A stretch of DNA of 50,351 bases from Bacteroidota bacterium. Its GTDB lineage: Bacteria > Bacteroidota > Bacteroidia > Bacteroidales > VadinHA17. This document shows, in pieces, positions 3,977 through 7,308 of this stretch (positions are counted from its first letter, which is position 1; each line of letters starts with the position of its first letter). The stretch is taken from positions 1 through 50,351 of the forward strand of contig DQWH01000099.1 in NCBI GenBank assembly GCA_011042635.1, read 5' to 3'. Both the position numbers and the translations under genes were made by a program. The notes beneath the pieces are model-generated. The model saw only the letters and a program-made list of their open reading frames with translations. It ran no database searches and was not told where the DNA came from.

Positions 3977-4555
3977 TTATTTTATAAAACGTTTATGAAT
4001 AATTTCCCTGATTTCGTTCAGAGGGAAGTGATCGGGATTCATGATGTAATTCAGAGCCAGTCCGTCCATCAGTGCGAGGAAGAAAAGAGCTTCTGATTCG
4101 GGGTTTTCCGCCCCCCGGGCAGCAAAGTAATTTTTCATAATCTGGAGAAAAGGATTGAGGATTTTTTTAAAATCACTGCTGATAATGCGCGAGACCTGTG
4201 GCTGGACCACAATGGAAAAGTATAATTTCCAGTACAGGGTTTTGCTTTTCAGCAGGGAGAAAAGCTGATCCACAAAATACAGCAGCTCCTTGCGGGTAAG
4301 TTCTCCGTCTTTGTTGATGTCGAACGATTCGAGCATTTCCTGGATCCCTTCCAGTACGATGGACCTCAGCAAAACCTCCTTGCTGCCGAAATAGTTGTAC
4401 ATCAGGCCCTTGGATATTCCTGCTTTTTGGGCAATTGAGCTGATGGATGTGTTGTAAAAACCCTCACGGCCAAACAATTCCATCGCCGATTCCATGATCA
4501 GTTTTCTTTTCTGTTCCCGGATTTCCTGGAATTGTTGGGAAGTTCTGGGTGACAT
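3977..4555 (-). CDS. TetR/AcrR family transcriptional regulator
   Basis: N-terminal TetR HTH: KLIMESAMELFGREGFYNTSISSIAQKAGISKGLMYNYFGSKEVLL. Confidence 0.95.
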   Translation of the reverse strand: MSPRTSQQFQEIREQKRKLIMESAMELFGREGFYNTSISSIAQKAGISKGLMYNYFGSKEVLLRSIVLEGIQEMLESFDINKDGELTRKELLYFVDQLFSLLKSKTLYWKLYFSIVVQPQVSRIISSDFKKILNPFLQIMKNYFAARGAENPESEALFFLALMDGLALNYIMNPDHFPLNEIREIIHKRFIK

Positions 4556-4587: not shown

Positions 4588-4605
4588 TGACTAACCGGTC
4601 AGTCA
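4588..4605. promoter_or_regulatory. Candidate TetR operator (18-bp imperfect palindrome TGACTAACCGGTCAGTCA)
   Basis: One mismatched symmetric pair only; central ACCGGT; 33 bp upstream of the TetR start codon. Confidence 0.65.
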
Positions 4606-4659: not shown

Positions 4660-4684
4660 GTAACTTTTCACCCCTGAAAACGTC
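4660..4684 (+). promoter_or_regulatory. Candidate ECF-sigma-type promoter (GTAAC-N16-CGTC) upstream of the sigma factor gene
   Basis: GTAACTTTTCACCCCTGAAAACGTC; resembles canonical ECF -35 (AAC) / -10 (CGTC) architecture; same motif upstream of the OMP gene at 6391. Confidence 0.6.
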
Positions 4685-4705
4685 ATATAAACGACTAACA
4701 GGATC

Positions 4706-5194
4706 ATGGACGTATCGGAGTACAATCAATGTGTTGAGCAGTATGCAGATCCGGTATACCGGTTTGTGCTGGGCAGCCTGCGTGATGAGGACCGGGCCAG
4801 GGATATTATACAGGATACCTTTGAAAAGCTCTGGGTCAAGGCAGAAAATGTTTCCTTTGAAAAAGCCAGGTCGTATATTTTTTCTACGGCCTATCATACC
4901 ATGATTGATATGATCAGGAAAGAGAAAAAAATGATGGTGGTGGATGACTATCAATCCATGGAAGGTTCGGGGGAGGAAACTTCCTACACCGGGCTGAAGG
5001 AGATCCTTCATGAAGCTTTGCAGCAATTACCCGAAGTACAGAGACACGTAATCTTGCTACGGGATTATGAAGGATATTCCTACGAAGAGATCGGTCAGAT
5101 AACCGGACTGAGTGAATCGCAGGTCAAGGTTTACATCTACCGGGGAAGGCTGTTTTTGAGAAAGTATATCGGGAAGCTGGAAACGGTGATATAG
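4706..5194 (+). CDS. RNA polymerase sigma factor, ECF subfamily
   Basis: Sigma2 region (YADPVYRFVLGSLRDEDRARDIIQDTFEKLWVKAE) and sigma4 region (LPEVQRHVILLRDYEGYSYEEIGQITGLSESQVKVYIYRGRLFLRKYI). Confidence 0.95.
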   Translation: MDVSEYNQCVEQYADPVYRFVLGSLRDEDRARDIIQDTFEKLWVKAENVSFEKARSYIFSTAYHTMIDMIRKEKKMMVVDDYQSMEGSGEETSYTGLKEILHEALQQLPEVQRHVILLRDYEGYSYEEIGQITGLSESQVKVYIYRGRLFLRKYIGKLETVI

Positions 5195-5209
5195 TTTAAA
5201 TAACCAGGA

Positions 5210-6298
5210 ATGATGACCATCAACAGGAACAATTACGAGATGTATTTTCTGGATTACCTGGAAGGTAATCTCGATCCCGTTATGGAAGAAGAACTGAAAA
5301 CATTTCTGGCAAATCATCCGGACTTGTCGGCTGAACTTGAACAGTACCGAAACATAACCCTTTCTGCTCCCGATGTGCACTTTCCCTATAAACATCACCT
5401 CAGAAAAAACCCATCCGAACCACTAACCGATCCAACCAGTCAATTTGCAGAATTTGCCATTGCATTTCATGAACATGACCTGTCAGACAGGGAACGGGAA
5501 GTACTCGAAAGGTATCTGGCGGAAAATCCTGAAAAAAAGAGGGAACTGGATCAATATGCCAGGGTATACTTGCATCCTGATCTTTCCGTTACCTTTCCGT
5601 CAAAGTCGGGCCTGAAACATTTCCGTCTGGTTCCGAAGGCAAGGAATATTCTGCTGGCGGCAGCAGGAATTGCTGCGACTGTTCTTATCGCCGTATTTTT
5701 ATGGGAGAAGTCTTCTCCTGTGCTTAACCAGTCCGGTTTGACGGCACAGATCGATACACTGGCTGTTCGTCAGCAACAGAAAGACCCGGACATATCTTCT
5801 CCAAAAGACAGTATAGTTCCGGAACCCGAAACGGTTCCCCCCCCGGGAAGGCAGAAAGAAGCTTCCCGGGCAACCAGGATTCCGGAACCGGTCATTCGCA
5901 TCGAGATAGCCGAATTGCAGGAAAGCGAAAATCCGGTAACTGCGTCTCCTCTGCCTCTCTTGCACAGGAAAGAAGGTATATATCTGGCAAGTAATGAGCA
6001 GTATATCGGCGAATTGACACCAAAGCCGATGCGCGGGGTGGAATCAGAATATCGTCCACTGTCCCTTTCCGAGTTTGCCCTTTACCAGCTGAAGAAATCG
6101 GTACTGGGCGAAAATGCTGCGAAGGCCACACCGGGACGTTTCAGTATGTGGGATCTGGCGGATGTGGGAGTCAGGGGTGTGAACCGCCTGATGGGCTGGG
6201 AGATGAAACTGGAAAGGGAATATGATGAGAACGGACAAATAGAATATCTTGCTTTCGAATCCAGAGCGTTGCAGTTTACCCGTCATCCCGGCGAATAA
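5210..6298 (+). CDS. Probable anti-sigma factor, single-pass membrane protein with two tandem N-terminal anti-sigma-like repeats
   Basis: Follows the sigma gene by 15 bp; cytoplasmic N-terminus, one TM (ILLAAAGIAATVLIAVFLW), periplasmic C-terminus; duplicated ~58-aa unit YEMYFLDYLEGNLDPVMEEELKTFLANHPDLSAELEQYR / FAEFAIAFHEHDLSDREREVLERYLAENPEKKRELDQYA. Confidence 0.75.
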   Translation: MMTINRNNYEMYFLDYLEGNLDPVMEEELKTFLANHPDLSAELEQYRNITLSAPDVHFPYKHHLRKNPSEPLTDPTSQFAEFAIAFHEHDLSDREREVLERYLAENPEKKRELDQYARVYLHPDLSVTFPSKSGLKHFRLVPKARNILLAAAGIAATVLIAVFLWEKSSPVLNQSGLTAQIDTLAVRQQQKDPDISSPKDSIVPEPETVPPPGRQKEASRATRIPEPVIRIEIAELQESENPVTASPLPLLHRKEGIYLASNEQYIGELTPKPMRGVESEYRPLSLSEFALYQLKKSVLGENAAKATPGRFSMWDLADVGVRGVNRLMGWEMKLEREYDENGQIEYLAFESRALQFTRHPGE

Positions 6299-6306
6299 TC
6301 CCTTCT

Positions 6307-6332
6307 GTAACTTTTCTGCCACCCTTTACGTC
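6307..6332 (+). promoter_or_regulatory. Candidate ECF-sigma-type promoter (GTAAC-N17-CGTC) upstream of the OMP gene
   Basis: GTAACTTTTCTGCCACCCTTTACGTC followed by GTATGA; shares GTAACTTTTC and ACGTCRTATRA with the site at 4660. Confidence 0.6.
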
Positions 6333-6390
6333 GTATGACTGAACCGGCAGGTTCCGGCAGCAAACAAACACATTACAAAAACAAAAAGTC

Positions 6391-7308
6391 ATGAAAAAAT
6401 TAATGGTCATATGCTTGTCGTTTCTTCTGATATTCCCCGTTTCCCTGAAGGCTCAGGAAGAAGAAGTGGAGAAGAAAACAGAAGAGACAAAAAAAGCTTC
6501 CACAGAAGTAAAAGTTGGTCCCCAGGGAGTGGTGGAAATAGTGGAAGCGGGGGATACCGTAAAAATTAAAATAGGAAACAAAGGCTTACAGGTGGTTGAG
6601 AACGAGGAAGGCACCAAAGTTGACATTCTGCAGGATAAGGAAGAGGTGACGGAAGAAAAACCGTTGATCAGAAAACGAAGAAGGAAGTTCGATGCACACT
6701 GGCAGGGTTTTTCTTTGGGTATGAACAATTATCTAAATGCCGACGGCCAGCTTGGGCCCCTGCCCGAGGATGATTTTATGGATCTGAACACAGGTAAATC
6801 CTGGGGTGTGAGTATTCAGTTTGCCCAGTTTGATGTAGGAATTATAGGAAATTCCCTGGGTCTGGCTACGGGTGTGGGAATTGATTTCAATGATTATCGT
6901 TTTGACGGGAACAACAATATCCAGAAAACGGATAATGTGATTGTAGAAAAAGATTATTCTCCCCTGACCCTTGACAAAACGAAACTTACCACCACCTATT
7001 TTTCTATTCCCCTGCTGCTTGAGTTGCAGATTCCGGCAGGAAGCAAAAGGATTCACGCAGCAGGCGGTGTAATCGGGAGTGTCAAAATCGGAAGCCATAC
7101 CAAGGTGGTGTACCGTGATTCCGGGGCAAAACAGAAGGACAAAATACGTGATGACTATAATTTGAGTCCGTTACGCTACGGTTTTACCGGCAGGATTGGT
7201 TACGGGAACTTCACCGTTTTTGCCAATTATTTTATGATTCCTCTATTTGAAAAAAACAAAGGTCCGGAATTATATCCTTTTACTGTAGGGATCACATTTG
7301 GTTATTGA
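6391..7308 (+). CDS. Outer membrane beta-barrel protein (PorT-like superfamily)
   Basis: Signal peptide (MKKLMVICLSFLLIFPVSLKAQ), charged periplasmic segment, alternating beta-strand pattern, terminal aromatic residue (YPFTVGITFGY). Confidence 0.8.
   Translation: MKKLMVICLSFLLIFPVSLKAQEEEVEKKTEETKKASTEVKVGPQGVVEIVEAGDTVKIKIGNKGLQVVENEEGTKVDILQDKEEVTEEKPLIRKRRRKFDAHWQGFSLGMNNYLNADGQLGPLPEDDFMDLNTGKSWGVSIQFAQFDVGIIGNSLGLATGVGIDFNDYRFDGNNNIQKTDNVIVEKDYSPLTLDKTKLTTTYFSIPLLLELQIPAGSKRIHAAGGVIGSVKIGSHTKVVYRDSGAKQKDKIRDDYNLSPLRYGFTGRIGYGNFTVFANYFMIPLFEKNKGPELYPFTVGITFGY

Follow-up and report, generated by a model that had tools for sequence, protein, structure and literature searches.

The stretch of DNA analysed here (the window, 50,351 nucleotides, from an uncultured member of the Bacteroidales) encodes an ECF sigma factor and a putative anti-sigma factor, and this gene pair is flanked by two closely matching promoter-like boxes, the second of which precedes a gene for an outer-membrane beta-barrel protein (OMP). 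Do the boxes, the pair and the OMP gene form one circuit? A first, sequence-only reading of the locus had claimed that the sigma factor regulates itself and drives the adjacent OMP gene, and this claim is now supported by the conservation of both boxes among relatives and by the boxes found at OMP genes located away from the pair. We hold with high confidence that the locus would be an autoregulated ECF sigma/anti-sigma module, probably one for envelope stress, with the two boxes (P1 and P2) as its promoters and the OMP as a separate target. The features involved are the following.

4660..4687, + strand: P1, GTAACTTTTC-N11-CGTCATA, ECF-type predicted promoter of the sigma gene (from the sequence; conserved in orthologous loci)
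4693..4694, + strand: conserved GA, 8-9 nt past the CGTC of P1 (G at ~85% of P1 sites)
4706..5194, + strand: ECF sigma factor, 162 aa (Pfam Sigma70_r2 and Sigma70_r4_2 over cut-off; orthologue group in 44/60 genomes of the order)
5210..6298, + strand: putative membrane-anchored anti-sigma factor, 362 aa (position, topology, weak anti-sigma profile matches)
6307..6335, + strand: P2, GTAACTTTTC-N12-CGTCGTA, ECF-type predicted promoter of the OMP gene (from the sequence; tracks an adjacent OMP gene)
6391..7308, + strand: OMP, 305 aa (Pfam OMP_b-brl_2 over cut-off; model and fold matches)

The sigma factor is a short protein that has sigma-70 regions 2 and 4 only, as expected of an ECF; it matches Sigma70_r2 with 45.1 bits and Sigma70_r4_2 with 68.3 bits, and TIGR02937 is also over its cut-off. 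Across its full length, the nearest named NCBIfam model is NF058625, the PG0214/GFO_1088 ECF family, which in Porphyromonas gingivalis corresponds to PG0214-PG0218, with a DUF4252 gene (PMC10101095). Unlike the members of that family, our sigma factor stays below the curated cut-off (111.1 bits vs 130); the true member in the same genome is a different ECF (G000:C6, 214 bits) with different neighbours. The orthologue group, whose count of 44 includes the genome of the window, is sharply set apart, with E-values of 3e-36 or better vs 2e-18 for the next match. SpSt-1193, a MAG, is the sister genome; the named carriers are mostly Bacteroidales/Marinilabiliales MAGs, plus a few cultured species. 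Two of the latter, Alkaliflexus imshenetskii and Maribellus maritimus, have both the sigma factor and an OMP homologue, which opens the function to experiments in culture. With this analysis, an ECF group that has no name in NCBIfam beyond the ECF superfamily gains a predicted promoter motif together with a conserved target.

Conservation of the two boxes

When the sequence was read again, both boxes were exactly where they had been reported, with a gap of 16 nt in P1 (GTAAC at 4660-4664, CGTC at 4681-4684) and of 17 nt in P2 (GTAAC at 6307-6311, CGTC at 6329-6332). The distances given in the sequence-only reading are also correct: the sigma ATG (4706) lies 21 nt past the CGTC of P1, and the OMP ATG (6391) lies 58 nt past that of P2. 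The pattern GTAACTTTTC-N8..16-CGTC has two matches in the window, none in 100 shuffles, and one extra match across the genome (2.64 Mb, 81% complete), where the gap is longer (21 nt). The genome-wide scan that had been proposed as a check was done by pattern matching, and GTAACWTT-N13/14-CGTCNTW gave exactly two matches in the 81% complete genome of the window and exactly two in the sister genome (98% complete), all of them at this locus. We found no published description of this motif in the open-access literature.

Upstream of the sigma gene, GTAAC-16/17-CGT[CT] is present in 43 of the 44 orthologous loci, 42 times with CGTC and once with CGTT. In further, non-identical loci the strict box lies within 150 nt upstream in 66/74, most of the others being one base off, and the background for the strict box in the same DNA is 4 matches per 1.01 Mb strand-bases. 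Beyond the letters fixed by the search, conservation extends to the T that precedes GTAAC, the WTT that follows it, the TA behind CGTC, and the GA 8-9 nt further on, at which transcription from P1 likely starts. The locus presents the traits of an autoregulated ECF, i.e., an AAC-type -35, a CGTC -10, a gap of 16-17 nt, and conservation of this arrangement 5' of the sigma gene.

Could the likeness of P1 and P2 result from chance or from a local duplication, without promoter function? The motif is short and a single genome offers only two sites, which is what makes the idea conceivable; zero matches are expected in the window, the boxes are kept in tens of divergent loci where the spacing is fixed while the spacer sequence is not conserved, and the second box also accompanies OMP genes that were relocated. 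We give this explanation almost no weight. Chance resemblance in particular was rejected on the shuffles, the two-site genome scans, and the conservation relative to background.

Some observations concern the geometry of the boxes. Among 68 genomes, the P1/P2 gaps are 16/17 (n=27), 17/17 (n=26) and 16/16 (n=15), and never 17/16 (n=0); the P2 gap is never smaller than the P1 gap (Fisher p 2e-4, uncorrected for the relatedness of the genomes). The sequences of P1 and P2 gave no signal of covariation within genomes. In one sigma locus (L058, in G051), which is counted among the 42 with CGTC, the box lies 330 nt 5' of the sigma start. The sequence AATAGGTCGAAGACCTTA recurs near this locus and elsewhere in the genome, and this repeat was possibly inserted between promoter and gene.

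The second box and the OMP gene

The sequence-only reading had staked its claim on the conservation of the motifs in relatives that keep the gene pair. This comparison left the claim standing: P1 turned out to be near-universal, with P2 present wherever the OMP gene is adjacent. When an OMP gene directly follows the anti-sigma gene, P2 is found in 74 of 81 loci under a 200-nt rule, and in about 76/81 if two more distant boxes are included; loci without an adjacent OMP gene have it in 2 of 31. Because it is present with an adjacent OMP gene and near-absent without one, P2 is a feature of the OMP gene and not of the anti-sigma gene's 3' end.

The association persists when the genes are unlinked. 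In 25 sigma-bearing genomes the sigma locus lacks an OMP gene, and each of them has an OMP homologue at another place; a box lies upstream of this unlinked gene, or of its operon, in 22 of them. These include 13 genomes where a strict box is 55-128 nt 5' of the OMP gene itself, and nine (L410-L418) where a longer OMP fusion protein of 480-494 aa is encoded behind another gene, the box being 47-76 nt 5' of the first gene of this two-gene unit (strict in eight of them, the ninth having an 18-nt gap). By-eye comparison indicates that this first gene resembles the DUF2807 proteins encoded behind boxes in other genomes. The other three of the 25 are a genome with its OMP gene at a contig start, one with a weak homologue only, and G084, which has no box. 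OMP genes located away from the sigma pair also have the box in G042, G051 and G055, and that of G055 is a DUF2807-barrel fusion according to Pfam. A box that accompanies the OMP gene even when it is unlinked pairs the sigma factor with its target unusually strongly for evidence from sequence alone. In silico, both boxes are real, both are kept among relatives at a fixed spacing, and P2 is tied to the OMP gene. The OMP is very likely the one conserved target of the autoregulated ECF/anti-sigma pair, as judged from these comparisons.

We infer that the boxes are active promoters read by this sigma factor, that the protein encoded next to it acts as the cognate anti-sigma factor, and that a signal triggers a release step. 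At rest, the membrane-anchored protein encoded at 5210-6298 would hold the sigma factor (4706-5194). An envelope signal reaching the periplasmic part of the putative anti-sigma factor would free the sigma factor, which would then transcribe from GTAAC-16/17-CGTC promoters: P1 would yield more sigma factor plus its brake, and P2 would separately yield the OMP barrel (6391-7308).

Specificity of the motif and extent of the regulon

These genomes have many ECF sigma factors, and it is conceivable that the boxes are ECF promoters read, one or both, by another of them, the adjacent sigma factor having other targets. Related boxes do precede other genes and ECFs, such as GCAAC-N16-CGTC 5' of an ECF in G005 and GTAAT-N16-CGTC 5' of a PG0214-type ECF in G001. 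On the other hand, nearly every orthologous locus has the box of our locus 5' of the sigma gene, and GTAAC-16/17-CGTC was not found 5' of the other ECF genes with a gene model in G000 (the genome of the window), G001 and G005, a comparison that covers all but a few ECF loci of these genomes. The sigma-less genomes bear on the same point. One of them, G050, has no sigma orthologue and yet has a strict box at its OMP homologue; it is the only one among the five sigma-less genomes whose OMP homologues were compared (1/5), against 22/25 for unlinked OMP genes in sigma-bearing genomes. The OMP is itself present in 44/44 genomes with the sigma factor vs 8/16 without it (p=5e-6, indicative only, as the genomes compared are related and Fisher values overstate their independence). 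Such cross-regulation is, in our assessment, improbable, and we retain the adjacent sigma factor as the one that would read both boxes.

GTAAC-16/17-CGTC reads as one dialect of a common ECF box form. The motif by itself does not identify the sigma factor, because similar boxes lie near other ECF genes of Bacteroidota and near other targets; for this reason stray matches, e.g., those at FtsX/MacB permeases, are not safely assignable. This qualifies a further claim of the sequence-only reading, which had expected the two boxes to define a motif for the regulon of this sigma factor. The motif does mark the circuit across genomes; within the genome of the window the "regulon" amounts to roughly this locus, because almost no other sites exist.

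A broader regulon would include many unlinked envelope genes, such as those for FtsX/MacB permeases, an ABC exporter, SppA, and DUF2807 proteins. Of the 46 sites outside sigma loci, 29 look like promoters, vs 4 of the 26 matches of a scrambled motif (Fisher p 1.6e-4, indicative only, given the relatedness of the genomes); in number, however, the sites do not exceed the scrambled-motif matches. Many of these extra sites precede permease, ABC and DUF2807 genes, several of them FtsX/MacB permeases, and the 46 include a few OMP genes. One permease site is kept in two genomes: GTAACAAW-N14-CGTCTTA lies 24 nt 5' of an FtsX/MacB-type permease gene at L120:2764 (G000:C37:7263) and L121:2593 (G001:C16:12092). 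The orthologues of this permease in several other genomes have TGCAAC..CGTCATT boxes instead, and because these are of the GCAAC type, a different ECF, with a box of related form, may be the one that reads the permease sites. The pattern scans give little support to a larger regulon in the genome of the window, and we consider the broader regulon unlikely.

The putative anti-sigma factor and known systems

The putative anti-sigma factor has no Pfam family over threshold, and PDB sequence and fold searches gave no useful match. Its AlphaFold model (mean pLDDT 68 over 362 aa) can be divided as follows.

5210..5413, + strand: module A, residues 1-68, three-helix unit (AlphaFold model; homologous to module B)
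5414..5629, + strand: module B, residues 69-140, second copy (AlphaFold model; hhalign)
5633..5710, + strand: predicted TM helix, residues 142-167 (single long hydrophobic helix in model and sequence)
5720..6052, + strand: low-confidence tether, probably disordered, residues 171-281 (pLDDT below 50)
6065..6283, + strand: small C-terminal alpha/beta domain, predicted periplasmic, residues 286-358 (model; conserved G and D positions)

The two modules have pLDDT values of mostly 85-96, and hhalign aligns one with the other at 99.2% probability, when 40 column-shuffled controls reach at most 12.9%. The cytoplasmic part of the putative anti-sigma factor (5210-5629) thus consists of two tandem copies of a single three-helix module, and both modules are spanned by 37/37 aligned orthologues. 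Weak but recurrent matches to anti-sigma profiles occur in 8/37 members, and to zf-HC2 in 5/37. Position and topology suggest that the protein acts as the anti-sigma factor of this sigma factor. This unusual protein is the part of the system most deserving of experiments.

The OMP has a signal peptide, strand-rich repeats and a small OmpA/Ail-like barrel; its model is confident over the barrel, whose fold resembles Ail and OmpA. Its N-terminal part (6499-6633) consists of short strand-rich repeats of ~20 residues (VKVG..GIV.V.E..DT), the number of which seems to vary among orthologues.

The circuit appears to be of an ordinary kind, an autoregulated ECF, backed by unusually clear comparative evidence. 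In RpoE-RseA, the sigma factor and its membrane-bound anti-sigma factor are co-transcribed from an AAC / CGTC type promoter, and the targets include envelope proteins. Our pair likewise lies behind an AAC / CGTC box and has an envelope target; unlike RpoE-RseA, it shows no RseB-type regulator in the operon, its regulon is small as far as it can be recognised, and its anti-sigma module is duplicated. In FecI/FecR/FecA surface signalling, an ECF, an inner-membrane anti-sigma factor and an outer-membrane protein are encoded in one locus, as are their counterparts here, but our OMP is a small OmpA/Ail-like barrel (OMP_b-brl_2) and not a TonB-dependent receptor.

There are close parallels with Das/Dma of Bacteroides thetaiotaomicron, in which the anti-sigma factor is dual membrane-spanning; as with our putative one, it lies beside a Bacteroidota ECF and has an N-terminal cytoplasmic domain and one TM helix. 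A Dma protein begins with its anti-sigma domain, continues through a TM helix and a disordered tether, and ends in a C-terminal barrel; its partners are ECF21 sigma factors (PMC13088901). The model of our protein also has a tether after the TM helix (low-confidence residues 171-281 after helix 142-167), and an outer-membrane barrel is part of both systems. Unlike in Dma, the barrel is here a separate protein with its own predicted promoter, the anti-sigma protein ends in an alpha/beta domain of ~70 residues, and its cytoplasmic part has two tandem modules. One may speculate on a two-part, Dma-like trans-envelope circuit, in which two sigma-binding heads and a long tether would sense the outer membrane via the separate small barrel, this barrel being the only invariant target of the sigma factor. 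We regard this as doubtful; if it were true, the supply of the sensor and the activity of the sigma factor would be joined in a closed loop, even in genomes where the genes are unlinked.

Two minor observations concern the region upstream of P1. The divergently encoded TetR-family protein (3977-4555) contains an EF-hand-like stretch, DINKDGELTRKE, at residues 71-95 (Pfam EF-hand_1, 22.0 bits, just under the cut-off of 25.4). Between its gene and P1, at 4588-4605, lies the near-perfect palindrome TGACTAACCGGTCAGTCA, which is perfect in the sister genome and resembles an operator for the TetR/LolA-like/FtsX-permease operon.
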